Below, piece by piece: positions 4,401 through 18,314 of a stretch of DNA of 21,543 nt. Origin of the DNA: a virus; IMG/VR virus record IMGVR_UViG_3300017528_000459, positions 1-21,543 of that record. One strand, written 5' to 3'. Each line of letters starts with the position of its first letter. The stretch's first letter is position 1. The notes under the pieces were generated by a model. That model ran no database searches. It was not told the origin of the DNA and worked only from the letters and a program-made list of their open reading frames with translations. Made by a program: the position numbers and the translations under genes.

Positions 4401-5262
4401 TGGGATTTAGCCCAGAAGATTGCTGTAGTATAAAGCAAAGTTGTACGACCGCTGCAGAAGCCGTCCCGGTGATGGAGTAACGTGTCCAAGTTTGGGTTAA
4501 GGCAACCGTTGCCGAAGCGATAACGGCTCCCGATACATTATCTATAATTTTCAAAAGTTGTTGGGGAGAGCCATTATTCGCGCGCAGCCAAATAGAAGCG
4601 GTAAAAGTGTTAGACGCAGCCGGGGTGTAAGCGGGAGTAAACACCTGAAAAACATTTCGATCTATAGCTGACCACGTTATCTGAGTGGCTTTAGAGCCCC
4701 CATTTGGATCAAATTGGTTGGTGACAACACCTGCCGGATTAGTATTAAGGAACCAGAAAGAAGCATCAGTAAAGGTATTGGACTGCCCAAGCAAATTTGG
4801 ACCCGTATACTTGAATTGATCGATGCCATCGGTCATGTACAGCGTGTTGCCCACCGTCCAAAAGTTGGTTTGCCCAGCGCCGGGACTCTTGTAAAATAGG
4901 ATGGCCGAGCCTGTGGGCTGGTAGATATAGACCGCGGTCGCGGTGTCGACAATGGTCTGGAGACTCGGGGGAGACGCTTGCTTGTACTCATAAAAGGCCA
5001 GCGGGGCCGGAATCGAGGTTGATCCAAACGACGACAGTCCAAAACGACGCTGCAGCGTTAGCGAGTTGGAGATCTCCACGTTGCTGCCGTCAATCAGCGC
5101 ATCAGGCTTACCACCCAAAAAGCGCGAGTTGTAGCGCGTGTCGATCGAGGCAAACGGGGAGCGCTGTGTCTGCAGACCCCCGATAAACTTGACCGTGGCC
5201 AGCGGGCGGAACTTGTCTGAGACTTGGGCTCCGTGAAGCTCCATCAAAGACGGATCAGGCAT
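1471..5262 (-). CDS. Large mosaic tail protein, nozzle / tail tubular B-like
   Basis: A 1263-aa virion protein. ATG at 5262 has GGGAG six bases upstream. Residues about 25-75 (FIGGLQTQRSP, RYNSRFLGGKPDALIDGSN, LTLQRRFG) match the N-terminus of short-tail nozzle proteins. Inserted parts: about 155-305, a carbohydrate-binding-like beta sandwich (NLLGQSNTFTDASFW ... TWTRYSITGT ... IYGAQLELG); about 333-395, a small domain with SITDANGN and TTTDGGVTWVQGG shared with the adaptor copy 2; about 745-1120, a beta domain (TAWTNPNNV ... KFLQATNYGLNVP) that seems to be interrupted by two similar beta units. The central part (400-745) is probably beta-propeller. Its position corresponds to T7 gp12. The TGA overlaps the next ATG (TGATG). 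Confidence 0.8.
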   Translation of the reverse strand: MPDPSLMELHGAQVSDKFRPLATVKFIGGLQTQRSPFASIDTRYNSRFLGGKPDALIDGSNVEISNSLTLQRRFGLSSFGSTSIPAPLAFYEYKQASPPSLQTIVDTATAVYIYQPTGSAILFYKSPGAGQTNFWTVGNTLYMTDGIDQFKYTGPNLLGQSNTFTDASFWFLNTNPAGVVTNQFDPNGGSKATQITWSAIDRNVFQVFTPAYTPAASNTFTASIWLRANNGSPQQLLKIIDNVSGAVIASATVALTQTWTRYSITGTASAAVVQLCFILQQSSGLNPIQIYGAQLELGTIATPTQITGPQPQGVSLWGIVAPTVAPSVSATALSAYWQATHAYNVGDSITDANGNLETVTVAGTSGGTVPTWPLLPNTTTTDGGVTWVQGGPNGLSPKTGYKWLFAYLNQTTGQPSNVSSFSVSTSTFSNNLGIAYTIAGPGSLDPQVNQIAVYRNADGGAFWFQVSTFANPANGGLWTFVDTVQDTNLSTIYAPIGLLNSPPPAGAINPVWHQSRMWISVGNNLYFSAGPDNASLLNIVQNGVIAESFALANVIPLDQQIIRSWSITAGLMVWTVGDLWLITGSDLASFNPVRILPGHGIRSYNSIDSDGSTTWMHTSDKQFLTLNASAGSVETGFTIGDKITANFDPSKSYVARHVGGSIDNAIFLADGSTGWFRVNPNQVGASVSGEPQAVWSPFATITNGAQAVASVETSPGVHQLLVGAPNNSTGTLTLGQLTGTGANSGSGTAWTNPNNVTLGNPASPATVQLNVQGSPGGKDVSGGATGSSTSPSTGSVTTTANNELDITVVAGTGPTLATTVTAGGGWTLDNQFSDIYREVITNVGHGGDPIETDYYFVFGAEHQNQAVAGAVTGTATLSRSNSWSAAIATFKSGSGAAPTIVQQKSAADSFGNEGAQFKSIAVQLTSAVAQGNFLVVAVGTSGLASALTVTDSLGNVFTAVQTTSKVAIFLAPISSVAGTDTVTLTSSSNVGALAMNIYEITLPPSAGTLSSKFLQATNYGLNVPNNNILGVKVFVTGSQSSSNPDAMLTLSWISPVGFSPSYTFQLPTSSGTVSFGSIASNWGQTLTATLLNNSAFGFQLQASVATSPNVTFNVSSVKVQVFYLNSPIQTFQVLFRDPTVFSDNGSSFTWSAVIGSLPLASSGTLAEVESITTETRAASGVQPAVSVLLDEISGSFESLPNSVNDPPQLAPSSSVLSNRFYLAQGPTPPLCKHLQIKLSGGATATRDELLGLTVRGALVPEQG
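4348..4798 (-). other. Low-GC domain insertion in nozzle-like gene
   Basis: This segment encodes the carbohydrate-binding-like beta sandwich (about residues 155-305). Counting six 60-base lines in it gives roughly 40-55% GC, against about 68% in a nearby line (4081-4140). Both ends carry near-identical short sequences (GGACCCGTAT at 4799-4808 and GGTCCCGTTAT at 4337-4347), encoding TGP at each side. Without the segment the flanking protein would read smoothly as YTGP-QPQG. This looks like a later domain insertion. Confidence 0.6.
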
Positions 5263-6073
5263 AGGGAGCTCCCTTCAGGCGCAGGTGCGCGCGCAACCTT
5301 GACAGGTCGCCGGCAAACGGTCCACGACAGATCTTCTGTCGTTCGGCCTCGATCGCGGGCGTCAACTTCAATCCATTTTCTTTTCGTCCGGTCATAAGAT
5401 ACTTCACGATCAGCAGGTTATGCTCCAGGTGGGGCTTCTCACGATGAGCCCCCGGCGTTAGGTAGTGCATATGCCAAACCGACGGTACCTGCCAAACCTC
5501 GCCGCCCATCATCCAGGTTTTCAAGCACAGCAACGGCTCCTCACCACCCCAGCCGGTCAGCAAGCTTGTGTAGCCACCCGAGCTCAGGTACCAGTTGCGG
5601 TCAAGCATGAAACACGAATGGCCAAATTGTGCGACCGGGTAGGCTACCTTGCGAACCTCGGCATAGATGGCTCGCTTTACCCAAAGGTCTCCATCCCAAT
5701 TGGTCTCATGCGCAAAAACATTAAACAGCTCGGTTCCTTCCCAAACACGTATCGGAAACGTGATCTGCGACTCCAAACGCTGGTGTTCGAGCAACAGCTG
5801 TGAAATATCGGACACGACCACGTGGGACTCGAGCAAGAGCACGTTGGGGTACTTTGCCAGGTTGATGCCCGCGTCGCGTGAGTCCTGGGGTGAACCGAAG
5901 TTACCGCGCAGGCACCTTAGTCCTCGATTTTCCCATTTGGTTTCCGTGCCGCCATCTGCTACCACGATAATTTCGTAGTCAATCCCTTTGCCCTCAAGCT
6001 GCACCTGCACTCCCGCTACGGTCAGATAGCAAGTTGCGAGGTCCTTGTACGAAGTAACGACAACGCTAAGCAA
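5255..6073 (-). CDS. GT2/GT27-like glycosyltransferase with GalNAc-transferase-type motifs
   Basis: A 272-aa GT-A enzyme starting at TTG 6073 with GGAG seven bases before; it lies five bases after the previous stop (starting 6077). MLSVVVTSYKDL and YEIIVVADGG are the nucleotide-binding strands. RGNFGSPQDSRDAGINLAKYPNVLLLESHVVV (56-87) matches the region ending in the D-x-H metal motif of polypeptide GalNAc-transferases, here E82-S-H84. GHSCFMLDRNWYLSSGGYT leads to GWGGEEPLLCLKTWMMGG (174-191) and PSVWHMH, the Glyco_transf_7C-type module. The gene is set apart from the main glycan cluster, between the adaptor and nozzle genes, and overlaps the latter by 8 nt. Peptide glycosylation of a virion protein is an attractive but unproven role. 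Confidence 0.8.
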   Translation of the reverse strand: MLSVVVTSYKDLATCYLTVAGVQVQLEGKGIDYEIIVVADGGTETKWENRGLRCLRGNFGSPQDSRDAGINLAKYPNVLLLESHVVVSDISQLLLEHQRLESQITFPIRVWEGTELFNVFAHETNWDGDLWVKRAIYAEVRKVAYPVAQFGHSCFMLDRNWYLSSGGYTSLLTGWGGEEPLLCLKTWMMGGEVWQVPSVWHMHYLTPGAHREKPHLEHNLLIVKYLMTGRKENGLKLTPAIEAERQKICRGPFAGDLSRLRAHLRLKGAPYA

Positions 6074-6076
6074 TGA

Positions 6077-7102
6077 TCAGCTCCACCCTGGCCACCCTGG
6101 ATAGCCAAATGTACCGGCGCCGCCGCCCTCAGAAGCTCCTCCTTGAATCGGTTGCGCCGGATAAAATCCCATCTCGTTGTACTCGCGATCTGATGACTCC
6201 ATCGCGCTCTGGATGTCCTCCAACCATTGGGCGTACTCCGCGGGAAATTTCGCACGCTGTGCCGCACTCTCCGCCTGCTTCGTGCAAAAGGCAAGAAAAC
6301 CCTGCTTGACCAGATAATTCAAGTCATCAGGAATCGGCGAAATCGTTTGCTTGAGCGTGGTGATATTGGGTGGCTTTTGCTGATAAAGTACCCGCAGCTC
6401 CCACACAACAGATTGGAAGGTCGCGAGCGCGTCCACACGCAGCGCGATGCCATTGGGATCTTGCACCGTCCATCTTACGCTGCCATCGTTAACGATCGTT
6501 CCGCCCGCAGCTCCCGAAGCGGCAAACGGCGCCGTCAACCCTGTCGTGCCATAGGTCGTCACCACGAGGATGTTGCCATTCGCGTCGGTGATCGCCGTCA
6601 GCGGATTGGTGCTCGGCCCGCCGCCATTTAAGACGAGCGGATCGGTGTAGATACTTCCAGGTCCGGGGTCTCCCGGCCGACCCCGTCCCCACACCGCTGT
6701 CAGCGCGACGGAGTTCACCACCCAGGTAACCTTTTGCGGGCGTCCCGTGATCATGGCCGGAAGCAACGTATTCACCGTGTTGATGGGCAGAATTGGGATG
6801 GGATTAGACGTATTGTTGATATCCGCAATAACCGCCGACTGCAGCCAACCCAGTGCATTCTGGCTGATGGACGTCGGATAATCTTGCTGGTACGGTTGCG
6901 TCTGGATCGCGGGAAAGCGCGCCGCGTTCCACTTCCACGGGTTGGTCTTCGCCAGGATCTTCTTGACGATCTCATCAAGAAACGACACCGCGGGCTGATC
7001 AGAATAGCCCGCGAGCCCAACCACGGGACGTGTCCAGGGAAAGGTGCGCGCGTAGTCAATCAGCTGCTGCGCGTTTAGGGTTGAGGAGTTGGTGGTTGGC
7101 AT
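6077..7102 (-). CDS. Tail adaptor-like protein, copy 2, with inserted domain
   Basis: A 341-aa paralog of the preceding protein. ATG at 7102 follows the previous TAA directly. Shared landmarks: FLDEIVKKILAKTNPWKWNAARF (about 40-62), QDYPTSISQNALGWLQSA, and PIPDDLNYLVKQGFLAF near 265. Between about residues 130 and 215 it carries an extra segment absent from copy 1, with AITDANGNILVVTTYGTTGLTAP and GTIVNDGSVRWTVQDPNG. This is a small domain that also occurs in the large tail protein encoded downstream. The C-terminus is Gly/Pro-rich (GGASEGGGAGTFGYPGWPG). It is probably part of the neck or tail ring. Confidence 0.68.
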   Translation of the reverse strand: MPTTNSSTLNAQQLIDYARTFPWTRPVVGLAGYSDQPAVSFLDEIVKKILAKTNPWKWNAARFPAIQTQPYQQDYPTSISQNALGWLQSAVIADINNTSNPIPILPINTVNTLLPAMITGRPQKVTWVVNSVALTAVWGRGRPGDPGPGSIYTDPLVLNGGGPSTNPLTAITDANGNILVVTTYGTTGLTAPFAASGAAGGTIVNDGSVRWTVQDPNGIALRVDALATFQSVVWELRVLYQQKPPNITTLKQTISPIPDDLNYLVKQGFLAFCTKQAESAAQRAKFPAEYAQWLEDIQSAMESSDREYNEMGFYPAQPIQGGASEGGGAGTFGYPGWPGWS

Positions 7103-7825
7103 TTACAGTCTCGCCTGCTTTCCCTGTTGGGTCGACATCATGGAGTTTTGTCCCGTGCGCAGAACGCGCAGCTGATCCTCTAGGAAAATTGCCTTTTCAG
7201 TTTCCGTGAGACCTTCAGCCGCGCCCACGAGCTGTCTGAAAAAGATCTCGAGGTTCATCGCGTAGAGCTGCGGATTATACATGCCCTGCATCATGGCGAG
7301 CATGCCCTGCTCATATAAAAATGCGTACCGGTCCGGAATGGGTGACCAGGTGGTCGTTCCTAGCGGCGCGACCGCCTGCGGCGCGGCCTTCTGAAAGGTC
7401 AGCGTCACGGGATACGCGAGATCAGGCGCCGGCATGAGCCGGAAGGTGATATTTCCCGCGTTGTCATCCAACAGCGGCGCGATCTGCCACGAACGATTCT
7501 GCGTGGACTCCTTCGACAGCACCTGGTTGACCTCGATCTCAAACGTCTTTCCCGTGCTGGGATCGGTCAGCATCGCCTTTTCAAGCCAACCCCAATTCGC
7601 CAGGGAGACCACATAGTCCGTGATACCCGGCGTGCAGGTGATCGAGCTGTTCTCCACGCGATTCCAGCTCCACTTAAACGGCGGAGCCATGATGGTCTGT
7701 AGGATCTTATTGGCCGAGGTGACGCCGGGCTCGTCGGTGATCCCACCCACCCCACGCGTGACCCGCTGTACGATGAAGCCCGCAAGCCAGTTGAGGGTGT
7801 CGGTGATCTTTACCGTGGTGCTCAA
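7103..7825 (-). CDS. Tail adaptor / tail tubular A-like protein, copy 1
   Basis: A 240-aa protein, start TTG at 7825 (TTGA overlap, GGAG eight bases before). Sequence landmarks are ITDEPGVTSANKILQTIMAP, PFKWSWNR, ITDYVVSLANWGWLEKA, a central beta region, and PIPDRYAFLYEQGMLAMM followed by a helical C-terminus. It is clearly paralogous to the next gene, which has KIL, PWKWN, LGWLQSA and PIPDDLNYLVKQGFLA in the same order. In T7-like phages the corresponding slot holds gp11, the head-tail adaptor ring. The adaptor role is inferred from order, size and neighbours. Confidence 0.68.
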   Translation of the reverse strand: MSTTVKITDTLNWLAGFIVQRVTRGVGGITDEPGVTSANKILQTIMAPPFKWSWNRVENSSITCTPGITDYVVSLANWGWLEKAMLTDPSTGKTFEIEVNQVLSKESTQNRSWQIAPLLDDNAGNITFRLMPAPDLAYPVTLTFQKAAPQAVAPLGTTTWSPIPDRYAFLYEQGMLAMMQGMYNPQLYAMNLEIFFRQLVGAAEGLTETEKAIFLEDQLRVLRTGQNSMMSTQQGKQARL

Positions 7826-8598
7826 TTTGCCGTCTCCGGAATCCCTTCCCTATAGGTTCGCCGCGCCAACGCCAGGTTTCGCGTCTTCATGATCATGTCC
7901 CGAAAGCTTCGATGCCGCTGTGAGATCTTTTTCGCCTCGATGTCAATCTTGGTCGCGTTGACGTTCGAGTGCTGATCGTCGTGATGCCGAAACACTCCCA
8001 ACGTCTGGTCCAAAAATTCGGGTTCACGCCGCTCCCAGAAGCGCAGCCACAGCTCGTAGTCCGCGCTGTGCTTGTACCGCGGGTCAAACATGCCCGCCAG
8101 GTCCATCATCTTGCGATTCCAAAATGTCGCCGGCTGTCCGATACGATTACGCTCCAGGAGTTTTTCGTATGTCGTGATCTCGCCATCAATTCCTAGTGTC
8201 TTTCCGCTAACATCTGCCGAGATCGTCTTGCCGTACAACCAATATGGCCCACCAAAGCGCTCACGCTCAAAGGCCTCATTCACCGCGATTAGGGCGCCGG
8301 GGCAAAGAAGATCATCCGAGCACATGAAGTACAAAATTTCTCCCGTCGCGCGCTTAAGAGACTTGTTCAATCCGTCAAAAATGCCACGATCACTCCCAAC
8401 AGAATAGCTAAAACGATCTTGAAGAAGATCCAAAACCTTTCCGACGATACCCACCCGTTCCAGCGGCGCCTCAACATTTCCGTCCTGAACGACCAGCTCA
8501 AAATCGTCGTAACCCTGAAGCAGAATCGAGTAGACCGCATCGCAGAAGACTTTCGTGCGACTCGCGCCGAAGATGGGCATGCAGAGCGAAATTTTCAT
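7822..8598 (-). CDS. GT2 family glycosyltransferase (GT-A fold)
   Basis: A 258-aa inverting GT2 enzyme. MKISLCMPIFGASRT begins the nucleotide-binding domain; DDFELVVQDGN (31-41) is the second strand; SVGSDRGIFDGLNKSLKRATGEILYFMCSDD (66-96) is the donor-site signature seen in WcaA/WbbL-like enzymes, with S-D-D (94-96) as the metal-binding motif. A conserved SADYELWLRFWER segment follows, the E/D region typical of the acceptor or catalytic-base part. It starts at ATG 8598 (ATGA overlap). It ends the main glycan cluster, and its TGA overlaps the next gene's TTG start. Confidence 0.92.
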   Translation of the reverse strand: MKISLCMPIFGASRTKVFCDAVYSILLQGYDDFELVVQDGNVEAPLERVGIVGKVLDLLQDRFSYSVGSDRGIFDGLNKSLKRATGEILYFMCSDDLLCPGALIAVNEAFERERFGGPYWLYGKTISADVSGKTLGIDGEITTYEKLLERNRIGQPATFWNRKMMDLAGMFDPRYKHSADYELWLRFWERREPEFLDQTLGVFRHHDDQHSNVNATKIDIEAKKISQRHRSFRDMIMKTRNLALARRTYREGIPETAN

Positions 8599-9509
8599 TC
8601 AAGGCCCATCACCTTCAGTACTTCCTGCAACCGCTGGGTGTAGGTGTCATGCTCTTTAACCCACCTAAACTGTTCCTTGCGGATCGCTTCGCGTTCGGCA
8701 TCGCGCGTAATGTAGTAATCAATCTTGTCAAACAAATCATCAATATCTTGCGGCTTATAAGTCACCACCGGGATCGTCATCCCCTCGGTCTGGGGATACA
8801 CGATGAATCCGCCGCGTCCGCACGTCTCGGGAAGCCGATCTGACCAGTACTTGGGAGTTCCCGCGAAGCAATGGTCTCCCACGAGAACCTTTACCGAGGC
8901 GTACAGATTGTTCAGGTTCTGCTCACGATAACCCTGGAACACCCGAAAGCGTGAGCCATAATACTTTTGAAGCGCCTGTACCATTTTACCACGAAATGGG
9001 TATTCTGGATGGTAACCTACGCTACCCGTAAAGCCCACATCACAGGCAAGCCCAGACTGATAGACGCCCTCAAAGCAGCCATACTCAACGACCGCGGGAG
9101 GTAGCCAGTGATGATTCACCCCGCGGCTCTTGAACTCTTCATCCTTCGAACCCACGGTGCTAAACCAGTGCTGCACCTTCCAGCTGGGATGCTTGCCCAC
9201 CAGCGAGTCTCGCCGGTCCCAGGCCTCGAGACCAAAGTAGACATCAAGGTGATACGAGAAGCTCTTCACACCCATCGCGTGAATCCGATTAAGCATCTCC
9301 TCAGGCGAAAATGAGCCCGTCGTGCTCCAGGTGTGCGTGTGCGTCCATTGAAACAGCTGGGCGTCTTTGCAGGCTTCAACCACCTGGTCCGTCGTAGCCT
9401 TGTTTTCCTGTAGCGCTACCACCTGATGCCCTAACTTCTCCCATGTCCAGCGATGATGCGACTCGGTGGAATAAGGCACGCTAAAATTTCCAAGAAAGAC
9501 GATCTTCAT
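8595..9509 (-). CDS. CgeB-like glycosyltransferase (GT-B, Glyco_trans_1_2 type)
   Basis: A 304-aa protein from the ATG at 9509 (ATGA overlap with the previous stop; an upstream start at 9542 lies within the preceding gene). The N-terminus MKIVFLGNFSVPYSTESHHR is a GT-B first strand and glycine loop. The middle holds GFTGSVGYH (about 159-167), and the C-terminus RLPETCGRGGFIVYPQTEGM (225-244), closely resembling CgeB/spore-maturation-like glycosyltransferases, which contact the nucleotide here. The end is a charged helix region. ATGA overlap couples it to the next glycosyltransferase. Sugar specificity is unknown. Confidence 0.82.
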   Translation of the reverse strand: MKIVFLGNFSVPYSTESHHRWTWEKLGHQVVALQENKATTDQVVEACKDAQLFQWTHTHTWSTTGSFSPEEMLNRIHAMGVKSFSYHLDVYFGLEAWDRRDSLVGKHPSWKVQHWFSTVGSKDEEFKSRGVNHHWLPPAVVEYGCFEGVYQSGLACDVGFTGSVGYHPEYPFRGKMVQALQKYYGSRFRVFQGYREQNLNNLYASVKVLVGDHCFAGTPKYWSDRLPETCGRGGFIVYPQTEGMTIPVVTYKPQDIDDLFDKIDYYITRDAEREAIRKEQFRWVKEHDTYTQRLQEVLKVMGLE

Positions 9510-10459
9510 CGTGTAAGCCACTCCCGGTGGCTCAGATACCACGTCACCGTCTTGGTCAGCAGCTGATCAAAATTTTCTTTCATCTTCCACGCTGTGCTCT
9601 GAGGTGACTCACGAATCGCATAATGTAGATCGTGCCCCGGTCTCTCCGTCGCTTCCGTGACCCGATACCGGTGCTGTAATCCCACGAGCGGCAGACCCAT
9701 GATCAGCGCGATACGCTCGAGGACCTCGAGGTTGGTTCTCTTCACTCCCGCGGTCACGTGATAGACCGAGCCGGGCACACCGTGCTCGGCGAGATAGACG
9801 AGCGCCCGGGCCTGCTCACCGACGTAGGCCCACTGGCGTGACCCGATGATCTTTCCGCTTGCGTGAATGTCAACGCGCTCGTTGTTAAAAAGCTTTTTGA
9901 TCGCCAGCGGAACAAACTTCTCGGGGTGCTGCCTCTCGCCAAACATGTTCACCGTGCGGGTTATCACCGCCGGCACCCCGAATGACCGTCGATAGCTATT
10001 GACCAAAAACTCCGCTCCCGCCTTCGTGGCGGAGTACGGGTTGGTCGGCTTAAGAGCGCAGCCCTCATTCCGTGGTTTGTCGTCAATCGCGGGCCCGAAG
10101 ACCTCGTCCGTCGAGACGTACACAAACTTTTTAACGCGGGCTCGTCGTGCCCACTCAAGAACATTCAACGTTCCGATTACGTTGGTCTGCACAAATTTAC
10201 CGGGATCACGCAATGAGCGTGTGACGTGAGATTGCGCCCCGTTGTGAATCACGCGGTCTACATCCGCTATCTCAGGCAACGGCTGTGTAAAATCATGAAA
10301 GAGAAACTTAAGCCTGTCTTGGGGCAGATGAGACAAGCTGTCCAACGGTCCCGCATAGTCCAGACAGTCGATGGCAGTCACGTCATGACCGTGTCGTAGG
10401 GCCTCCTCTATCAGGTGTGAGCCCACAAAGCCTGTTGCGCCGGTGATTAAAATCTTCAC
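9506..10459 (-). CDS. dTDP-glucose 4,6-dehydratase-like extended SDR (copy 2)
   Basis: A 317-aa protein starting at GTG 10459 in a GTGA overlap with the previous stop, with TTGGAG upstream; a start 30 nt earlier would add ten residues of shadow sequence. The NAD motif is GATGFVG (7-13). The full RmlB catalytic set is present: S-T-D-E at 116-119 and Y142-x3-K146 in NPYSATKAGAE. The late motif RPGHDLHYAI and C-terminal TVTWYLSHREW match RmlB-type 4,6-dehydratases, as does the total length. Expected reaction: NDP-hexose to NDP-4-keto-6-deoxyhexose, the entry to deoxysugars. It is paralogous to the gene before it. The exact nucleotide and sugar cannot be told. Confidence 0.9.
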   Translation of the reverse strand: MKILITGATGFVGSHLIEEALRHGHDVTAIDCLDYAGPLDSLSHLPQDRLKFLFHDFTQPLPEIADVDRVIHNGAQSHVTRSLRDPGKFVQTNVIGTLNVLEWARRARVKKFVYVSTDEVFGPAIDDKPRNEGCALKPTNPYSATKAGAEFLVNSYRRSFGVPAVITRTVNMFGERQHPEKFVPLAIKKLFNNERVDIHASGKIIGSRQWAYVGEQARALVYLAEHGVPGSVYHVTAGVKRTNLEVLERIALIMGLPLVGLQHRYRVTEATERPGHDLHYAIRESPQSTAWKMKENFDQLLTKTVTWYLSHREWLTR

Positions 10460-11391
10460 GCGAGCGTCTCCAAGTGACTCGCGTACCAACGTGCGGTCTC
10501 CGCGAGCGTCGCCTCAAAGTCGTGGCTAAAATCGTAGCCCAGCTTGGTGTCACACAGCGCGTAACGCAGGTCGTGCGAGGCACCGGGCACGATCGGATTT
10601 ACGACGAAGGTAAGATTGATCGCCCGGGCCAAAGAGTTGATGATCTCAAGATTGTTTCTCTCCGGACCGACCACGTGATAGACCCCGCCGTCTTGAAAGC
10701 AGTAGGTCGGGTCAACGGCGCGCTTGATCGCGTCCACGAACTTGTCCACGTGCAGCCAATTTCGCGAGCCAATCACGCCATTAGCTCCCACGTGACAGGA
10801 TACCACTTGCTTGTTGAGCAGGCTCTTCAACGTCATCGGGATGAAGCGCGCCTGCTGCTGCTTGGGACCAAACACGTTCATCGACCGAATGATGACCGTC
10901 GGAACGCCATAGGAAACGTGGTAGGCATTCACAAGAGCCTCCGCCGCGGCCTTAGAGGCCGCGTACGGATTAGACGGATGAAGCGGCGCGCTTTCATCCA
11001 AACTATGGTGCATGGGCACCGCACCCACCACCTCACCCGTGGAGATGAAGATAAACTTACGAAGGTTACTGATCTTTCGCGCGAGCTCGAGCATGTTGAA
11101 CGTGCCCGTCACGTTGGTGTCGACCGTCAACACCGGATCCGCTAGGGACTTTACTCCCGAGACGTCACCCGCGAGGTGCACGATGTAGTCGGCGTCCTTT
11201 ACCTGCTCGACAAGCTGTGTCGGAACCTCCGCACGCAGGTCATGAAACAGCTGCTTATAGCGCGACTGATCGGTCACGCGAAAACTTGACAACCGCTCGA
11301 GCGAGTAGAGCTCGCAATCAGTCTCATTAAACATTCTCTTGACAAAACGGCCGCCGATAAACCCCGTGGCGCCGGTGACGATGATCTTCAA
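10456..11391 (-). CDS. Extended SDR nucleotide-sugar enzyme, RmlB-like (copy 1)
   Basis: A 311-aa NAD-dependent epimerase/dehydratase. The start is taken as TTG at 11391 (TTGA overlap, GGGGA upstream), giving MKIIVTGATGFIGG; a GTG at 11403 would add four residues but has no ribosome binding site. The NAD-binding motif G-x2-G-x2-G is at residues 7-13, the catalytic Y-x3-K at Y143/K147 (NPYAASK), and the C-terminus keeps the SHDLRYAL and ARWYASH features of dTDP-glucose 4,6-dehydratases. The usual S-T-D-E of RmlB reads S-T-G-E here (117-120), so the dehydratase Asp is missing while Glu remains. It is therefore an epimerase, decarboxylase or altered dehydratase. It acts on a nucleotide sugar in the cytoplasm. 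Confidence 0.88.
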   Translation of the reverse strand: MKIIVTGATGFIGGRFVKRMFNETDCELYSLERLSSFRVTDQSRYKQLFHDLRAEVPTQLVEQVKDADYIVHLAGDVSGVKSLADPVLTVDTNVTGTFNMLELARKISNLRKFIFISTGEVVGAVPMHHSLDESAPLHPSNPYAASKAAAEALVNAYHVSYGVPTVIIRSMNVFGPKQQQARFIPMTLKSLLNKQVVSCHVGANGVIGSRNWLHVDKFVDAIKRAVDPTYCFQDGGVYHVVGPERNNLEIINSLARAINLTFVVNPIVPGASHDLRYALCDTKLGYDFSHDFEATLAETARWYASHLETLA

Positions 11392-12239
11392 CTTTTTCCC
11401 CACATGGACGCGTACGGCATTCCGTCAATGTCCTTCCAATCCGGTATCGCCTGCTCAAAGGTCACGTTACGTTTACCGTTGGTCTTCCACGGACTTGGAA
11501 CCTTGATAATCTGTTCCTCACGTTCCACGGGAAAGCAAAAGTAGTGCTCCTCGTGGTCCACACCTAGATACTGCCAGTGGTAACCCGACTCGTGCAGCAG
11601 TCCGAGAATCTGTCGCTTCGAGGTGTTGAAGCTCGCGAGACGCTGACGCGGGTGAATGCTCAGCCAGACCAACGGCCGCTTGTGATTGAGCGTTAATTGC
11701 GCGCCCTGCAGCACCCTAAATTCCGCCCCCTCCACGTCGATCGTCAATGCAGCGGGAACCACGTGAGTTAACCCAACGATGTCATCGATCGTGGCCTCTT
11801 CCGCCTCGGTGTTCGCATGGATGACCGACCAGCTCTCAAAGTTTTTAAGCGGATCTTTTTCCGCAGCCGGTAACCAAGATTTTTTTGTGTAGCCCGCTCG
11901 AGCCGTCGTACGATTGCTGACAAATACTTGAAAGGTCAACAGCGGCTTTGCGTAGAAGTTATACTCCCAGGTCTCCTTGATCGTAGGCCACAGCTCGCCC
12001 ACATGCTCAAACAGACACATGTTCTCGGGACCCACGAACTTGGCGTAGATCGCCGATTGCCAACCGAGCTCGGTGCCGATGTCAAATAACACGTCACCCT
12101 GCTTGAGGTTCGCCTCCATGCTCAAGAAGCGGTCCTTCTCGTAGTGCGGTCGCTCCTCCCGATCCGCCACGATGTCCGGCGCCATGATCGAGTAGCGATA
12201 GGACCCATCCTCTTGCAAGAAGGTCTTGAGCTCTTTCAT
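11388..12239 (-). CDS. FkbM-family SAM-dependent methyltransferase
   Basis: A 283-aa protein. ATG at 12239, directly after the previous stop, is preferred to an upstream start at 12359, because the extra residues are a shadow of the preceding gene. SAM-binding motif I is DVLFDIGTELGWQ (about 49-61). The family hallmark ALTIDVEGAEFRVLQGA lies at about 164-180. FkbM enzymes methylate hydroxyl groups, often on sugars of lipopolysaccharide or other glycans. Set among glycosyltransferases and sugar dehydratases, this one probably caps or decorates the glycan. Its TGA overlaps the next gene's start in the pattern TTGA. Confidence 0.87.
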   Translation of the reverse strand: MKELKTFLQEDGSYRYSIMAPDIVADREERPHYEKDRFLSMEANLKQGDVLFDIGTELGWQSAIYAKFVGPENMCLFEHVGELWPTIKETWEYNFYAKPLLTFQVFVSNRTTARAGYTKKSWLPAAEKDPLKNFESWSVIHANTEAEEATIDDIVGLTHVVPAALTIDVEGAEFRVLQGAQLTLNHKRPLVWLSIHPRQRLASFNTSKRQILGLLHESGYHWQYLGVDHEEHYFCFPVEREEQIIKVPSPWKTNGKRNVTFEQAIPDWKDIDGMPYASMWGKS

Positions 12240-12240
12240 C

Positions 12241-12984
12241 TTACCATTCACCTGGATCTCGCACGCCGGTGGCCTCATCGTTACGGCCATCGCGGTGCGT
12301 GAACGTGGGCTGTCCGTCCTGGTAGATGACGATCTTATTATCAGGCCAGGTCGCTTCAACGACGGGAGAATACATGACTGTCTCGATCATCGCCTTTTGA
12401 CCGGGACGAAAGTGCCTCTCCAAAATCCGGCGATGATAATCGGTCCGACTCACCAGCGGCCATTGCGAGTACTGGGTCGTCTTAACAAAGCGGGCTCCGG
12501 CGTGCTCAAGCTCGCCGTGCATTAGGTGTTGGTGCTCGTGCCAGATCTCCGGCCAACTGTACAATCGCACGAGATTGGCTTGCTCGCTTAAGAGCAAGCT
12601 AAAGATCGCCTCAAAGTTGATCGACGGTTCACGCCGCAACATCGCATCATGCTCGACGAACATGATGAGCGGCGTGTCCACGTAGTGTTGGAGCACGTTG
12701 GCCGTCATGACAGCCTGCTGGCTGTGCTCCGAAAAGATCTTCAGCTCGGTGCGCCCGAGCTTAAACTTATTGCACAGCTCGGCCAGTTGCGTCTTGTACC
12801 CATCATACTGCTCACGACGGTGAGCCACCGACGGTCGTACACCATCGGCCATGACGATGATTCTCGCCGTGGAAAAATATGAGCGGATCGCGCCGACGCA
12901 CTCCTCGATCAGCGACGTGTCGGGATGACGCGGGATCGGCGACGTGGGGATGAGGATCGTTACAAGATTATCTAACGACGGCAT
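12241..12984 (-). CDS. GT-A-like glycosyltransferase (GT2-type)
   Basis: A 247-aa protein starting with a Rossmann-like strand NLVTILIPTSPIPRHPDTSL and a second strand ARIIVMADGV, the classic beginning of GT-A enzymes. The metal/donor motif is probably E111-H112-D113 in LIMFVEHDAML, in the position of the DXD motif. Further along, VRLYSWPEIWHEH and QYSQWPLVSRTDYH are of the acceptor-side type. The start is ATG at 12984 with GAGGAGG six bases upstream. TAA is followed after one base by the ATG of the methyltransferase gene. Similar short enzymes are usual in O-antigen or capsule clusters. Specificity is unknown. Confidence 0.72.
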   Translation of the reverse strand: MPSLDNLVTILIPTSPIPRHPDTSLIEECVGAIRSYFSTARIIVMADGVRPSVAHRREQYDGYKTQLAELCNKFKLGRTELKIFSEHSQQAVMTANVLQHYVDTPLIMFVEHDAMLRREPSINFEAIFSLLLSEQANLVRLYSWPEIWHEHQHLMHGELEHAGARFVKTTQYSQWPLVSRTDYHRRILERHFRPGQKAMIETVMYSPVVEATWPDNKIVIYQDGQPTFTHRDGRNDEATGVRDPGEW

Positions 12985-13876
12985 TCACGTCCTCCTCGAG
13001 CCAATTTTTCATTCGCTCCTTGTAGCCCTTCCACCAATCCTGCAGCTTATCCCGGTTGCCGGGCCAATCGCGCAACGCTTGGTCATAGGCCATGGGGAAA
13101 TCTGACCAATGAACGATCGTCGGAAATGGTGGTTCTTCGCCTAGGACGTACCGCCAAAAGCTCGTCTCCTTGTGCCCACGTCTCGGAAAGAACGGCGGCC
13201 ACCGGTCCTCGACAACGGGGACGCATCCTGCCTCCAGGGCCTCGGCCACACGCAACGTGTCCGGCGTGCACGCGCCCGCGGGACACGGCGCAACCTTGCA
13301 GCTCGCAAACTTTTTGTAGTACTCGCCGCGCTCGAGACCGCTCCAGAAACCCGGCGACTCGAGTAGGAAGCCCTGGTTCATCATCTTTAGCTGGGTCACG
13401 CACTCACGACGCCACTGGTGATTAACCTGTCCCGCATAAAACCAACCCAGGGGTTTTTCCCGAAGCTCCTTCTCACAGTGAATCAAAAATATGGGCGTAT
13501 CGTGGGGATACCCGCAAATGATCTTTCGCGTCGCGTGATCGTGCACACCGGGAATGGGCATCTGTACCCACAGTCGTCGACGCGGACCCACCAGTCCCTG
13601 CGTCGGAAACGCGCCCTCCTCATCCCCGATCACGATCGTTACGGACCAACTCAGACGATTGATCTGGTTAAAGAGCTGCGCGGCCTCACTAACCTGGTGA
13701 CCGCCGTGGATCACGACCACCGCACCGTCAGCATCGGGCGGCAGCTGCTTGAAACCGTTGCGGTGAACCAAACCCAGCTCAGCCTTGTCCATCGCATTGT
13801 TGATGAGCGTCGAAAGCCCATACCAACTGCGATTGTCCGCGCTGATGGGATTTTCGCTCCACACGCAGTTGATCAA
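12968..13876 (-). CDS. Exostosin/GT47-like glycosyltransferase
   Basis: A 302-aa protein. The start is TTG at 13876, overlapping the previous stop as TTGA, with AGGTGG upstream. The C-terminal half resembles exostosin-type GT47 enzymes: WFYAGQVNHQWRRE (about 145-158), then YYKKFASCKVAPCPAGACTP leading into DTLRVAEALEAGCVPVV (206-222). The small-residue pattern R-x2-E-A-L-x-A-G-C-[VI]-P-V is the conserved family core. The N-terminus has a GAVVVIHGGH strand-loop. Four cysteines cluster near 193-219. It overlaps the next gene by 17 nt. Family assignment is from the C-terminal motif; the sugar specificity is unknown. Confidence 0.72.
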   Translation of the reverse strand: MINCVWSENPISADNRSWYGLSTLINNAMDKAELGLVHRNGFKQLPPDADGAVVVIHGGHQVSEAAQLFNQINRLSWSVTIVIGDEEGAFPTQGLVGPRRRLWVQMPIPGVHDHATRKIICGYPHDTPIFLIHCEKELREKPLGWFYAGQVNHQWRRECVTQLKMMNQGFLLESPGFWSGLERGEYYKKFASCKVAPCPAGACTPDTLRVAEALEAGCVPVVEDRWPPFFPRRGHKETSFWRYVLGEEPPFPTIVHWSDFPMAYDQALRDWPGNRDKLQDWWKGYKERMKNWLEEDVNAVVR

Positions 13877-14832
13877 GCGACACCCACCAGGTTAAGAAAA
13901 CGCTGACGAAAATTATCGCGCGACGCTAAGAAGGCTTCGCGCGCCTGACGTGAACGACGCTCAAGCTCGGCGATCTTATCAACCGCCTCCAGAGCTTTGC
14001 AAGCGGCGACCACCACACCCATGGGATTAACCTGGGCAAGCTGCGCGAGGGAGCGCGTCGAGTAGCTTGCGACCGGCACGGTCCAATCCGCTTGGATACC
14101 CGCAAATTCGTTCATAGGCGGCGCCGCGGCCGTCAGCATCAACGCTCCGCAGCCGATGCCCTCATTCAGCGCGTGCCCATAACCTTCGTAAGCACTCGGC
14201 AGGATGTGAAACCGGTGGCTGTTCATCAGCTTCACCAACTCATCTTCGCTGGCCCGCGTGATGCAGGTGATAAATTCCGCGCCCTGGCACATCTCCTGGT
14301 ACTTGGGTTGTCGCGTCACGACCGTCAGCGGCAGCGGCTTATAGCTCCAGTTGGCGCCCCGCCAAGCTTGGATGATGGCCTCAGTGTTCTTAAACTCTGA
14401 TTCCCCGGCGACGTGCAAAAATTTGTTTTCACGCGGGATGTCTCCACGATAAAGGTCCCGGGCCTCGAAGCCGGTATAGATAACGCGCTCCGGACGATCA
14501 GCGGCCAGCTTGGACCGCCACAGCCGTTCACAGTCGCGCGTCTTGCAACAGATCCGAGTCATCCGCGGCAAAAATTGATCATTGATCGGGTGCCACCACT
14601 CACTGTTGGGAAAAAGCCAATTTTCACGTGAGAGGCTAAATACGTTGGGCATGCACACTTCCAAGAAGATGTTCAGGTCCGCACGGACGAAGTTTGAGCC
14701 GGCGAAATTTGTGTAGTGATATGCGTTTGTGTAACAGTCATGCGAGCTGAGGAGGTCCTTGAGCAGGAGATACTCCCGCTCAAGGCCTTTTCCCACTAGG
14801 CTCGTTACGATGTTGATGTCCTTCTTCGGCAT
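13873..14832 (-). CDS. GT4-like glycosyltransferase (GT-B fold)
   Basis: A 319-aa glycosyltransferase. The C-terminal half carries the GT4 signature E-x7-E: E216 to E224 in YEGYGHALNE, preceded by FHILPSA and followed by G-C-G-A-L and a small-residue loop. This is the nucleotide-sugar binding site of retaining GT-B enzymes. The segment RENKFLHVAGESEFKNTEAI at about 135-154 is the usual start of the second Rossmann domain. The N-terminal acceptor domain is shorter than in many GT4 enzymes, but the protein looks complete. TAATG overlap joins it to the preceding gene, and TTGA overlap joins it to the next. Donor and acceptor sugars cannot be read from the sequence. It probably acts in the cytoplasm as one step of the phage glycan pathway encoded here. 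Confidence 0.85.
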   Translation of the reverse strand: MPKKDINIVTSLVGKGLEREYLLLKDLLSSHDCYTNAYHYTNFAGSNFVRADLNIFLEVCMPNVFSLSRENWLFPNSEWWHPINDQFLPRMTRICCKTRDCERLWRSKLAADRPERVIYTGFEARDLYRGDIPRENKFLHVAGESEFKNTEAIIQAWRGANWSYKPLPLTVVTRQPKYQEMCQGAEFITCITRASEDELVKLMNSHRFHILPSAYEGYGHALNEGIGCGALMLTAAAPPMNEFAGIQADWTVPVASYSTRSLAQLAQVNPMGVVVAACKALEAVDKIAELERRSRQAREAFLASRDNFRQRFLNLVGVA

Positions 14833-15314
14833 TAAGCCTCGACGACCATTCCGCGAACCGCGTGAGCCCCCGAGCGGCCCATGTTCTTGATCGACTTCAG
14901 GTCATCACGCAACAGGCGCAGATCGTCAGCGTTGCGCGTGTCAAATTCTGACCGGCATGTCCCGCAGACCCCCGTGGTGATGTGATTTGAATGTTCCATC
15001 CATTTGATGTTGTATGTCCCGTTCTCACGCTTATGTGGGCAGATGCGCTTGGTCGCCGCGCGCTGGGCCATCTCGATCCTGATCTGCTTCTGCCGTTCCT
15101 CCAGGTCCCGCTTCTTTTGCTCGAGAACCTTTGGATCGACATACGGCTTGCGCGACTCGAGGATAGCATCGGACAGCTTGTTCTGCGCTTCCGCCAGGCT
15201 TTGCTGCGTCTTGATCAGCTCGGCCATCAACATCTCGACCGACATTGGCGCAGGAGTAGCGGTTTTTTCAACAACCTTGTTTACGATATCAACATTCTTG
15301 TTGTCAGTACTCAT
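14832..15314 (-). CDS. Coiled-coil protein with putative zinc-binding motif
   Basis: This is a 160-aa protein. ATG at 15314 has GAGAGG six bases upstream; 73 nt separate it from the previous gene. Residues about 22-88 are a long charged helix, likely a coiled coil (LAEAQNKLSDAILESRK, then KKRDLEERQKQIRIEMAQRA). This is followed by C92-x-H94, H108/H111 and C117-x2-C120, a spacing that could bind zinc. The C-terminus is basic with a small Gly/Ala-rich tail. Its TAA shares one base with the ATG of the first glycosyltransferase gene, so the glycan genes are directly coupled to the virion genes. The function is unknown; a structural or regulatory DNA/RNA-binding role is possible but unproven. Confidence 0.72.
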   Translation of the reverse strand: MSTDNKNVDIVNKVVEKTATPAPMSVEMLMAELIKTQQSLAEAQNKLSDAILESRKPYVDPKVLEQKKRDLEERQKQIRIEMAQRAATKRICPHKRENGTYNIKWMEHSNHITTGVCGTCRSEFDTRNADDLRLLRDDLKSIKNMGRSGAHAVRGMVVEA

Positions 15315-15387
15315 CTTTTGCCTCTCACGGGTGACGTTGGTTTGGACGGATCGTTCCTTGTCCAGTAACGCGTCAGTACCGTTTACA

Positions 15388-16134
15388 TCACCGAAGACCG
15401 TTTCGAAACTCCCAAAGCTGCCGGCGATAGTTGCTGGCCGTTATCCCATTGGTGGGAGGCCCAAAAACATCAAGAGCCTGCTGTTCGCTGATGATTGACA
15501 TTGGCCGACCCTTCAATGTCGGGTGCGGGTGCGATTTGAAACCCTTGGGATCAAATTCTTCGCACAGCTTGCAGTGCGACGCGCGACGCGCGATCAATCT
15601 TAAAAGAAGCGTACGCCATCCGCGTTTTTGCCCGATCGCCACCTGGACATCATTCACCAGGTCAATCTCATACTCAGGGATCTCGCCCATCTCAAGCCAT
15701 GAGATGAAGTATGGACAGTCTACCCAGTCCATTTTTCGATTCCAAAGCGGGTAGTTTAGGATCTCGGTCACCGGCGTATTTTTTACGACGTACAGTCCGA
15801 TGCGATTTTGCTGACCGCCGGGGGCAACAACAAGTGATGGGATGATCTGCCTTAGGCCTCGAACAACCTCGGAGTAATGGAGCACACGTCCCATGCGACG
15901 CTTTGCATCAACAAACTCTTCCCACTCTTCCTTACGACTCTTTTTTTGTCGGATGTGATCAAGCTCTTCTTTTTTGGCGCAGACCGCCTCACCGGGCGAC
16001 AGCATCATGGCCTGCAGCTTATCAACATCATCGCGCGTGATGCCCATCTCCTCGAGTAGGGCCTCCTTGCGCTGTTCAGCGTGATCGTCTTCTTTTGTGA
16101 AACCTTTTTTTATGTAGCTATCCGCGAGGGCCAT
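15388..16134 (-). CDS. Unrecognised phage protein downstream of capsid
   Basis: The protein is 248 aa from the ATG at 16134, preferred over the overlapping GTG at 16137 because AAAGGA sits six bases before it. Residues about 1-90 are highly charged and probably helical (a run around KKEELDHIRQKKSRKEEWEEF). The remainder looks globular, with a short strand region RIGLYVVKN, aromatic-rich PYFISWLEMG, and a C-x2-C pair in SHCKLCEEF near residue 203. The C-terminus has a helix ending NYRRQLWEF. There is no membrane segment or signal. The location between capsid and tail genes suggests a head-completion, packaging-related or virion role, but no family is recognised. Confidence 0.75.
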   Translation of the reverse strand: MALADSYIKKGFTKEDDHAEQRKEALLEEMGITRDDVDKLQAMMLSPGEAVCAKKEELDHIRQKKSRKEEWEEFVDAKRRMGRVLHYSEVVRGLRQIIPSLVVAPGGQQNRIGLYVVKNTPVTEILNYPLWNRKMDWVDCPYFISWLEMGEIPEYEIDLVNDVQVAIGQKRGWRTLLLRLIARRASHCKLCEEFDPKGFKSHPHPTLKGRPMSIISEQQALDVFGPPTNGITASNYRRQLWEFRNGLR

Positions 16135-16155
16135 CACCGGTCCTTTTTACCAAGC

Positions 16156-16182
16156 GGAAGCGGAGGAGGAATCTCCGCTTCC
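16156..16182 (-). terminator. Strong hairpin 3' of capsid gene (distal)
   Basis: GGAAGCGGAG, a 7-nt loop, CTCCGCTTCC: a perfect 10-bp stem in the roughly 110-nt gap between the capsid gene and the next gene. Downstream sequence is GCTTGGTAAAAAGG, with no U tract, so factor-independent termination is uncertain. A stop, pause or RNA-processing role after the capsid gene is common in phages and plausible here. Confidence 0.5.
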
Positions 16183-16218
16183 CTTGCGCAAGGTCAATCT
16201 CAGGCTCGACCGGGCCTA

Positions 16219-16248: not shown

Positions 16249-17141
16249 TTAGGCGACGGCGGTTTCCGACAAAATACGACGGAAAGGAAGGAACGTTCCA
16301 CCAGCGGCCGGACGCGGAGTCACAACGAACTTAAAGTTGTAGCTAACCGCGCCGCCAATCTCACCACCCGGATCAAACGAGTTGGGAGCGAACTGATAGA
16401 TATTGGCTTTGAAGTTTGACTCATCAGGTACGTCCTCGAACCCGCCCAGCGCAATCGAGAACATTGTCTCGTCAGCGCTGATGTAGGTCGCATAGGACGA
16501 CTTGCCCGACAACGGAAGATTCGCGATCAACGGAACGTTTGTCGACATCACAAAATCGACTCCGGCGATCGGAATGATCTCGTTATCTTCGGCGAGCCCG
16601 GCTTCAATCCACTTCTGTCCTTCTCTGGTATATTTCTCGGTGTCCAGAACACCGTTAGCGGTCAGATCATTCGCAACGTCGGACAAAATGTAGGGATGCA
16701 TGATCCCGCGATGCCGTCCGCCGGCGAAAGGCCGACCGTTCTTCCCGCGAATCGTGGCCACGGCGGTGTTGATCACCGCACGAGTCGTGAACGAACCGTC
16801 AGGAACCTGTACGCTCGCGGTCGAATCCGTCGAAACAGCAGCGTCATAACTTTGCTGAATCAACGTATCAACCACCAACGCGCCTCGATAACCAAGCATT
16901 TCGCTCAGCTGTTCGAGAGGCTTGCCGATGTCAACCGCCAGGGCGAAGTCAGAAACGTTGACGTAATCAACGTACTGTCCAAGAGTCGCTTGGATGCTCG
17001 CTTCGGTCGGGGTGATCGGCGTTCCCACGGCGCCTTCGGTCGCGGTCGGTGGGGGAGTGTCGCTTACGCCGCCGCCAACCGCAGATCCTGCCGCTGCAAC
17101 CGACGCCGTAAACGGCGCGAGGTTATCAAATGTGTTTAAGA
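16249..17141 (-). CDS. Major capsid protein, exon 2 (N4-gp56 family)
   Basis: Exon 2 supplies residues 59-355 of the capsid protein. It begins TC TTA AAC ACA TTT, which after joining gives IYT-FLNTFDNLAPFT. Family hallmarks follow: an EGAVGTPITPTEASIQATL segment, then GQYVDYVNVSDFA, the LGYRGALVVDTLI helix, HPYILSDV, and a C-terminal PGGEIGGAVSYNFKFVVTPR strand. These are typical of HK97-fold N4-gp56 family capsids, and about 355 aa is a normal length. Read alone it appears as a shorter frame starting at a GTG at 17028, but conserved coding continues upstream through residues rich in Ala/Gly to the splice site. Product: main shell subunit, expressed at very high level late in infection. Confidence 0.93.
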
Positions 17142-18047
17142 CTCTGGAGTTTCCACCAGGTCGCTCTTACGATCTCTCGTAAGTTCAGACTGTATCTTGG
17201 ACTTTTGGTCCTCTTGCGTTTCAGTCGTTACGGATTCTCTCTTGTTATTCAGAGCTTGAAGCTGATAAGCGAAAGACCTACGTTCTTCTTCCAGTCCATG
17301 CTTTCCGGTAATTCGTAGGACTTCTAACAAAATTTTTGCTTGTTCTCGCTTGAGCATAAGATAAGGAAGTATCTCAAGTAAAAACCGCTCTTTGTTTCGT
17401 CGTCCCGAAAGGCCCCATCCATAGTATGGCCTCCCACCCGAAGGAGGAAGATTTATTCGTCCTCCGAAATGTTTGTAGAACCATTTGATAGATCTCAATG
17501 ACTTAGATGTGAGTCCTACCACTGGGTTCAAATTGGCCATTCCCATATAAAAGGCGCCGTCGCCATCCATCATACCGGCAGCATAAGATGCAATTTCTTG
17601 CGAAGTTGAAAATTGACCTAGGTAAAAATCGTCAATCTGTTGGTGATTAAGTCTCTTGCACTCTTCTGAAAGTTGTATACGCTCAGTAACATTCCAGTTT
17701 TTACCAAGTGAAAGATACCGCATCACTAAATCTGCCTGCCCGATCTTTAGAACAAGATAGGGCTTTATCCCGGTTAAAAACCAAGTCCTTTTTGTAGGAG
17801 GGATACTCCAGCCATAGATATAGCCGCATCCACTTAAGGCAGAAAAACCGCGTTGATTCGGTCTTTTTTTGTAAACACCGCCAAAATTTTCAACCAACCA
17901 ACGCATCAACCTCACATCCGTATTTCCAACACCGATGGACAGCCCTGTCTGTGCCTTTGTGGCCTCTTTGGAATGTCCACGAGAAATACAAATGCATCCT
18001 TCGCTATCAATTATTCCGGCCGCATACGGCCAAGCTTTGCGCTCCAT
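17136..18047 (-). CDS. LAGLIDADG homing endonuclease (intron-encoded)
   Basis: This is a 303-aa single-chain enzyme with two LAGLIDADG motifs: AAGIIDSEG (residues 9-17, catalytic acid E16) and AAGMMDGDG (156-164, catalytic acid D163). Such enzymes cut an intronless capsid allele and so spread the intron. Each motif is followed by a segment of the usual half-domain type (GVYKKRPNQRG..., and a similar FGGRINLPPSGGRPYYGWGL part). It lies wholly inside the group I intron apart from its end. Residues from about 274 are encoded by P7-P9 ribozyme sequence, and the last codons (TCT TAA) lie in capsid exon 2. The start is ATG at 18047, with GAGGAAAG upstream. Its DNA is clearly more AT-rich than neighbouring phage genes, which fits later acquisition. 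Confidence 0.93.
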   Translation of the reverse strand: MERKAWPYAAGIIDSEGCICISRGHSKEATKAQTGLSIGVGNTDVRLMRWLVENFGGVYKKRPNQRGFSALSGCGYIYGWSIPPTKRTWFLTGIKPYLVLKIGQADLVMRYLSLGKNWNVTERIQLSEECKRLNHQQIDDFYLGQFSTSQEIASYAAGMMDGDGAFYMGMANLNPVVGLTSKSLRSIKWFYKHFGGRINLPPSGGRPYYGWGLSGRRNKERFLLEILPYLMLKREQAKILLEVLRITGKHGLEEERRSFAYQLQALNNKRESVTTETQEDQKSKIQSELTRDRKSDLVETPES

Positions 18048-18135
18048 CGAGAGTCTTTCCTCGGTATTGTCCTAAAAATTTTTCATCTTTAGGAGTTTCA
18101 CCGATTTAGCAAGATTTTGTATACCCATAATTTTT
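17142..18135 (-). ncRNA. Group I self-splicing intron in the capsid gene
   Basis: The intron is about 994 nt. Paired elements can be read directly on the minus strand. P1: exon TATACCT with internal guide GGGTATA (18126-18120). P3: CTTGC (18113-18109) with GCAAG (17217-17213). P4: CGGT (18103-18100) with ACCG (18065-18062). P5: CCTAAA (18093-18088) with TTTAGG (18076-18071). P7: GACTG (17226-17222) with CAGTC (17192-17188), set in the classic AACGACTGAAACG and AAGATACAGTC contexts. P8: GGAC (17211-17208) with GTCC (17202-17199). P9: CTTACGA GAGA TCGTAAG (17183-17166). The last intron base is G (17142), as required. The layout resembles that of the phage T4 td intron core. The endonuclease gene fills the peripheral region between P6 and P7. 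Confidence 0.92.
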
Positions 18136-18310
18136 AGGTATAGATCTGAGTCGTGCGGCCCGCGTTCTTCGGAATCTGACGTTCAGCCGTCAGGCCCTGA
18201 AAACCGAGGTGCGCAAACAACGCCCTCACCGCCAGTCGGTCGTAATAGACCGCCTGGGTTGAAGGAAGAGTGGAGCCAATGACAAATGATGCCGCAGCAT
18301 TGCTAGGCAA
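18136..18310 (-). CDS. Major capsid protein, exon 1 (N4-gp56 family)
   Basis: Exon 1 encodes 58 codons plus one base, starting at TTG (18310). It reads MPSNAAASFVIGST..., then an AVYYDRLAVRALFAH segment and ERQIPKNAGRTTQIYT. The Y-Y-D-R and I-P-K-N-A-G-[KR]-T pattern is typical of the N-terminal arm of N4-gp56 family capsid proteins. Four codons after PKNAGRT the frame hits a TAA, which is inside the intron. The 5' splice site is placed after the T at 18136 because the last seven exon bases, TATACCT, pair with intron bases GGGTATA (18126-18120), giving the U-G pair that group I introns need at this site. Joined to exon 2 (starting 17141) the frame is preserved exactly: 175 + 893 = 1068 nt, 355 aa plus stop. 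Confidence 0.88.
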
Positions 18311-18314
18311 TTTG

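Follow-up and report, generated by a model that had tools for sequence, protein, structure and literature searches.

Eight coupled genes lie between the capsid-side and tail genes

We analyzed a soil phage fragment of 21,543 bp, the IMG/VR virus record IMGVR_UViG_3300017528_000459 (here called the window, i.e., the whole stretch of DNA analyzed), whose genes lie on the minus strand. Between its capsid-side genes and the head-tail adaptors, at 7822-14832, are eight open reading frames (ORFs) encoding five glycosyltransferases (GTs), two nucleotide-sugar enzymes of the short-chain dehydrogenase/reductase (SDR) type, and one FkbM methyltransferase. Four of the GTs, designated GTa, GTb, GTc, and GTd, constitute a core, and the remaining proteins include accessories. 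The features of the block are the following, in the order of transcription.

13873..14832, minus: GTa, GT4-like, 319 aa, core (phrog_2170, 2.5e-10; E-x7-E; PF00534 under the cutoff)
12968..13876, minus: GTc, GT-B fold with an RXYLT1/GT47-like C-terminal domain, 302 aa, core (PF24785 and model)
12241..12984, minus: GTd, GT-A fold, 247 aa, core (model; no family match)
11388..12239, minus: FkbM-family methyltransferase, 283 aa, accessory (PF05050, TIGR01444)
10456..11391, minus: SDR1, extended SDR nucleotide-sugar enzyme, 311 aa (Epimerase, 147.3 bits)
9506..10459, minus: SDR2, RmlB-like nucleotide-sugar 4,6-dehydratase, 317 aa (Epimerase, 181.9 bits; RmlB alignment)
8595..9509, minus: GTb, CgeB-like GT-B, 304 aa, core and marker of the module (PF13524; phrog_28745, 1.1e-41)
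7822..8598, minus: GT2 glycosyltransferase, 258 aa, accessory (PF00535 above the cutoff)

The original prediction for this DNA had described eight overlapping genes running head to tail between capsid-side and tail genes, and the ORFs, the strand, and the junctions were all confirmed from the DNA. With the starts refined for FkbM (ATG, 12239), SDR1 (TTG, 11391), SDR2 (GTG, 10459), and GTb (ATG, 9509), six junctions, including the exit into the adaptor at 7103, turned out to be 4-nucleotide (nt) overlaps (ATGA, GTGA, or TTGA). GTc and GTd overlap by 17 nt, the block is entered from gene 14832 through a 1-nt overlap (TAATG), and a single spacer base precedes FkbM. These junctions support the predicted translational coupling of the genes. 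Promoter- and terminator-like motifs in the region 4500-18500 were not above shuffled controls. Presumably, the block and the virion genes are transcribed as one unit.

The block encodes diverse glycosyltransferases, nucleotide-sugar enzymes, and a methyltransferase

Family matches and structural models upheld the predicted combination of several GT folds with nucleotide-sugar enzymes and a methyltransferase. A GT-A or GT-B fold was assigned to GTd and GTc from their models and to GTb and GT2 from Pfam, while GTa was counted as a GT by its motif and PHROG match, its Pfam score (PF00534, 21.8 bits) being below the cutoff of 26.4. GTa retains the E-x7-E motif (E216, E224), gives weak profile matches to GlgA, PimA-like, and BshA enzymes, and has its counterpart in the N-terminal half of a GTa-GTb fusion protein of other phages. 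GTb reached 35.9 bits versus a cutoff of 25 for PF13524 (Glyco_trans_1_2), and GT2, which shows weak similarity to PglI and WcaA, reached 27.1 bits versus 23.3 for PF00535 (Glycos_transf_2). For GTc, the score for PF24785 (RXYLT1_C) was 30.9 bits versus 27; its model (predicted local distance difference test [pLDDT], 90.3) had GT-B enzymes as the best PDB matches, weak by E value (2e-3) and with a probability of 0.94 to 0.98, and matched viral GT models better (E of about 1e-5), the top one being an uncharacterized protein of an uncultured phage (template modeling [TM] score, 0.82/0.87). GTd had no match in Pfam, PHROG, or NCBIfam; its model (pLDDT, 90.8) matched TarP, PcManGT, and POMGNT1 at an E of about 1e-7, and its residues D47-G48 and E111-x-D113 were invariant in 17 sequences.

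The two SDR proteins, both expected earlier to be RmlB-like, exceed the Pfam Epimerase cutoff of 20.9 bits, and only SDR2 keeps the Thr-Asp-Glu signature. SDR2 resembles RmlB in aligning with 1g1a over its length (phmmer, E 5e-53) and in retaining S-T-D-E and Y-x3-K (YSASK), and TDE is retained in seven of seven block members of the SDR2 type. In SDR1, the aligned signature reads S-T-G-E, with Gly in place of the catalytic Asp of RmlB. Neither protein reached the TIGR01181 equivalog cutoff of 365 bits (SDR2, 253; SDR1, 171.5), and for this reason SDR2 is labeled RmlB-like and not RmlB. The presence of two full RmlB enzymes was rejected on these grounds. RmlA, RmlC, and RmlD were not found in the block. 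The methyltransferase passed both of its cutoffs (PF05050, Methyltransf_21, 34.6 bits versus 22.7; TIGR01444, 40.8 versus 37.7) and by these scores is a genuine member of the FkbM family, its product being a candidate O-methyl cap.

Gene order is kept in sister contigs while the accessories change

Scanning for the capsid protein identified 16 related contigs (loci on contigs are designated L002 and so on). Wherever the contig extended far enough, gene 14832 and adaptor 7103 bordered the series GTa-GTc-GTd-(variable)-SDR-GTb-(variable)-adaptor. The same order and place were seen in L002, L006, L007, L008, L009, L011, and L012, and the start of the block was seen in L004, L013, and L015; the comparison with related genomes that the original prediction had suggested thus placed the block at the same site in about ten sister contigs. 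Since the gene order is kept, in the same place, in these contigs, a chance clustering of ORFs was ruled out. The accessories differed: FkbM was present in L002, L007, and L011 and absent from L006, L008, L009, and L012, and an additional GT2 or Galactosyl_T was carried by L002, L008, L009, L013, and L015. L002 also encodes, between GTa and GTc (12174-13637), a B12-binding radical SAM protein, which is unusual as an accessory in phage glycan loci.

The far end of the L002 contig (G001) carries on the other strand a second sugar-related cluster (L133, 15591-19060). Its products are an RmlA-like nucleotidyltransferase (PF00483, 21.6 bits), proteins resembling a kinase and a HAD phosphatase, and one of 419 aa that had no Pfam match and appeared GT-like by eye. 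This cluster may supply an activated sugar. The RmlA-like gene was found in G001 only, and therefore sugar activation is probably host supplied in most of these phages.

The sole isolated relative of the window phage is the Tunturiibacter phage Tunturi_3, a podovirus of Acidobacteriota (PMC11924767), whose virion genes show about 25 to 40% identity. At the corresponding place, Tunturi_3 has no such glycan block. This kinship is a hint, and only that, of an acidobacterial host of the window phage.

The core glycosyltransferases recur as a module in phages whose virion genes are unrelated

A scan with GTc yielded 12 further contigs with virion genes not matching those of the window; all of them had GTb, most had GTd, and about half had GTa. 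A broader scan with a GTb profile gave 66 viral contigs, which together with one genome match (L132) made up the 67 loci counted, many of them ended early by contig ends. GTb, GTc, and GTd occurred together in 49 of the 67 loci, and GTb alone occurred in 11. In 22 loci GTa and GTb were fused in a single open frame of 508 to 778 aa, and in 17 loci GTc and GTd were fused; because both pairs are found fused, there is strong evidence that the four core GTs act together. The GTb proteins fell into 31 clusters at 60% identity, 22 of which were accompanied by GTc. GTa, GTb, GTc, and GTd are thus a module common to phages with unrelated virion genes.

Virion neighbors of the module were then called by PHROG matches in lineages with different head genes. 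The major capsid protein (MCP) gene lay about 1 kb upstream of the module in L035, L106, and L116 and downstream of it in L115. Nearby genes also encoded the portal (L033, L035, L123, and L129), the terminase (L030, L034, L072, and L132), the tape measure protein (L035, L106, L116, and L128), a head-tail adaptor (L111), or a minor head protein (L040).

Only one of 84,980 prokaryote genomes contained a GTb relative, a count that sets only a minimum for the number of cellular copies because the scan rests on one sequence motif and could miss diverged ones. That single match, L132, has the same GTb-GTc-GTd order and carries terminase and portal genes on its contig; the idea that a polysaccharide cluster was simply transferred from a host was therefore unsupported. 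Among 50,697 phage records, neither GTc nor GTd had a match, whether in the form found in the window or in two fused forms of other lineages, while GTa and GTb had distant matches in Streptomyces phages and GTa also in one archaeal virus. We know the complete module only from metagenomes. The literature searched contained no description of it, and to our knowledge it is an unreported phage GT module.

Two loci of this set differed in their surroundings. In L036 (197 kb), two copies of GTc together with GTa, GTb, and FkbM are spread over 17 kb and form no tight block. In L123, the GT module is adjoined by a gene (12174-13133) with a weak match to CDP-glycerol glycerophosphotransferases (PF04464, below the cutoff), hinting at a polyol-phosphate decoration in some phages.

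Flanking genes and the split capsid gene

The genes of the window are ordered as follows: a portal-like gene, a small gene, a scaffold-like gene, the split MCP gene, two small genes, the block (14832-7822), two homologues of Tunturi_3 gp12/gp13, a GT gene (5255-6073), and a gene for a 1,263-aa tail protein. The features outside the block are as follows.

19989-21542, minus: portal-like gene on the capsid side of the block
16249..18313, minus: major capsid gene, split by an intron-like insert with a LAGLIDADG ORF (17136-18047) (tblastn; weak phrog_1357)
14832..15314, minus: small Cys-containing protein upstream of GTa, TAATG-coupled, kept only within the lineage
7103-7825 and 6077-7102, minus: two head-tail/tail proteins directly downstream of the block, homologous to Tunturi_3 gp13 and gp12
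5255..6073, minus: sixth GT, GT2/Glyco_transf_7C-like, outside the block (PF00535, 20.9 bits, and PF02709, 20.3 bits, both below the cutoff)

The proteins encoded at 6077-7825 weakly match the tail protein family phrog_10775, and in Tunturi_3 gp12 and gp13 are annotated as "structural protein" and "tail protein," respectively. The sixth GT gene follows adaptor 6077 and precedes the tail gene, as it does in L019, L022, L028, and L045; the earlier count of four to five GTs thus holds for the block, which has five, and left out this one beyond its limits. The virion region is closed by a gene for a small protein (116-556) that is kept in L045 and, as judged by eye, at 13728-14171 of L134, on the L002 contig, and that appears acetyltransferase-like, by eye only. 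The virion region of Tunturi_3 has two annotated acetyltransferases.

In a tblastn comparison with the intact MCP of L002, residues 4 to 62 corresponded to 18304-18128 of the window and residues 42 to 351 to 17184-16252. Intron-like inserts, some with LAGLIDADG ORFs, were seen in the MCP genes of the window and of L006, L007, L011, L012, and L013 at differing points (residues of about 57, 203, 293-298, 312, and 325 in the numbering of the intact L002 protein). The MCP gene of L013 has three breaks, and its stretch 11277-11486 was identified by Rfam as a group I intron (64.1 bits); in the window, Rfam made no group I intron call at the gathering score.

Comparison with known glycosylation systems

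The original prediction had regarded the block as much richer than the one or two GTs usual in phages, a claim that needs correction, as such clusters have a precedent in the Corndog group (cluster O mycobacteriophages), compared here through Firecracker and Catdawg. In this group, an O-methyltransferase and three GTs lie head to tail in the virion operon (gp33-36 in both phages), so that several GTs and a methyltransferase inside a virion operon are a trait shared with the window block. A proposed role of these genes is to modify the capsid in a complex manner with methyl groups and glycans (PMC4351075). A later report of capsid glycosylation is mentioned in PMC12363180, which cites Freeman 2023 for it. 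The Corndog cluster differs from the window block in having no nucleotide-sugar enzymes and no conserved fused core and in lying between the portal and protease genes, not after the MCP gene. Our profiles had no match to Firecracker gp33-36, and no homology of the Corndog GTs to GTa-GTd was found.

True homologues were found in the Streptomyces phages Yara (gp28, GTb) and Kela (gp48/49, GTa), in or next to the virion modules: Kela gp48 sits between the MCP and major tail genes, and Yara gp28 follows the tail genes and is beside a methyltransferase. Both phages have single members without GTc or GTd, and the function of these proteins is a predicted one.

The chlorovirus PBCV-1 makes a four-sugar core, conserved among chloroviruses, with virus-specific extensions and a dimethylated rhamnose cap, and has a three-domain fused GT gene, a111/114r (PMC7019647). 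The design of conserved core enzymes, variable periphery, methyl cap, and fused GTs is thus shared with the phage module, by analogy only: PBCV-1 is a eukaryotic virus of an unrelated lineage whose genes are not described as one operon, and the phage glycan is a predicted one.

The block probably serves glycosylation of the virion

We favor the explanation that the block, expressed late, assembles a glycan in the cytoplasm and thereby decorates a virion protein, and we assign to it a probability of roughly 0.6. GTa, GTb, GTc, and GTd, probably working as a complex, would build a short conserved core oligosaccharide from nucleotide sugars, one sugar after another. SDR2 would yield a 4-keto-6-deoxy sugar nucleotide, which SDR1 would epimerize or reduce, GT2 would attach further sugars, and FkbM would cap the glycan by O-methylation. 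The acceptor would most likely be the MCP or some other head or tail protein that is abundant and encoded by the same transcript. Expression of the block alongside the head and tail genes suggests a virion protein as the target, and the conserved core with its changing accessories suggests a constant inner glycan with a variable outer part. In this scheme, we infer which sugars are used and in what order, what the acceptor is, and how the phage benefits. The case for phage-encoded glycosylation of the particle as the apparent function of the block is stronger than it was in the original prediction, because the core GTs recur, pairwise fused, as a module beside virion genes in unrelated phages.

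That prediction had offered virion glycosylation and late remodeling of the host envelope side by side, and the former is now favored. The proteins of the block showed no clear membrane span (in a hydropathy scan only), and its genes gave no match to a phosphoglycosyltransferase or other lipid-linked initiator, a flippase (Wzx), a polymerase (Wzy), GtrA, or GtrB; the lack of membrane-spanning, initiating, flipping, and polymerizing components argues for a virion target and is most simply read as a stepwise cytoplasmic transfer of sugars to a soluble protein. A late change of lipopolysaccharide or exopolysaccharide blocking readsorption or superinfection would agree with the RmlB-like, GT2, and GT4-like enzymes, which are typical of cell-surface polysaccharide pathways, with the weak resemblance of GT2 to WcaA and PglI, and with superinfection exclusion as a proposed role of phage GTs (PMC10202952), but besides those missing components, the near absence of the GTb family from cellular genomes and the recurrent location of the module beside capsid and tail genes make it unlikely. 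A modification of DNA, named by the original prediction as what glucosylated phage DNA would point to, comes foremost among the alternatives and is still improbable. Here the GTs would glycosylate a hydroxymethylated base, giving a multisugar shield against host nucleases. A ThyA homologue closest to cytidine monophosphate (CMP) 5-hydroxymethylase (E 2e-26) is indeed encoded in the close sister G001 (L133, 11613-12488), with Asp where thymidylate synthases have Asn (position by eye), a residue we take to be typical of cytidine substrates. Diverse glycans can occur on phage DNA (Pyle et al. 2024, cited in PMC12619734). However, some 30 kb separate this gene from the block, and the two are on opposite strands. 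Of the 40 records searched, among them one record of 197 kb, another of 159 kb, and about ten of 65 to 69 kb, G001 alone gave a CMP-hydroxymethylase-like gene, with fragments limiting what its absence from the others means; the late virion placement would also be unusual for base modification. A Tet/JBP search gave no match, but as its control was silent too, this carries no information. Least probable, and by some way doubtful, is a nonvirion cytoplasmic target, such as a host protein, tRNA, or small molecule glycosylated as a counterdefense, with the late operon as a mere convenience: the variable accessories (radical SAM, Galactosyl_T, and Glyphos_transf-like) do resemble an arms-race locus, and no acceptor tracks the module, yet counterdefense genes are normally early and would not need such heavy coupling to virion genes.

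Several points weigh against glycosylation of the virion. We found no acceptor protein tracking the module; gene 14832, considered as such an acceptor, was rejected, having no match in the distant loci. One sister phage has the CMP-hydroxymethylase-like gene. The lineages checked for virion neighbors were chosen by eye, with no formal null, and nearness alone is weak evidence because virion genes make up a large share of any phage genome. Finally, as the GTs are not homologous, the Corndog precedent is an analogy only.

More tentatively, and with somewhat less than an even chance in our estimate, GTa-GTb-GTc-GTd may be a widespread virus-specific module that was not recently borrowed from a known cell and that builds, directly on the virion and with no lipid carrier, a conserved core oligosaccharide, to which lineage-specific sugars and caps are added. 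In podovirus- and siphovirus-like phages alike, it would then be the equivalent of chlorovirus capsid glycosylation. Only a few phages are known to glycosylate their virions, with Che8, Corndog, and Myrna named (PMC12363180); if the above is true, surface glycans would be common among phages and not exceptional. GTb would then be a marker for predicting coated phages, and biochemistry would gain three GT families that are barely annotated or not annotated at all. The module would also give a handle on the roles of a sugar coat in soil phages, for example, in particle stability, adsorption, sorption to soil, and escape from receptor decoys.

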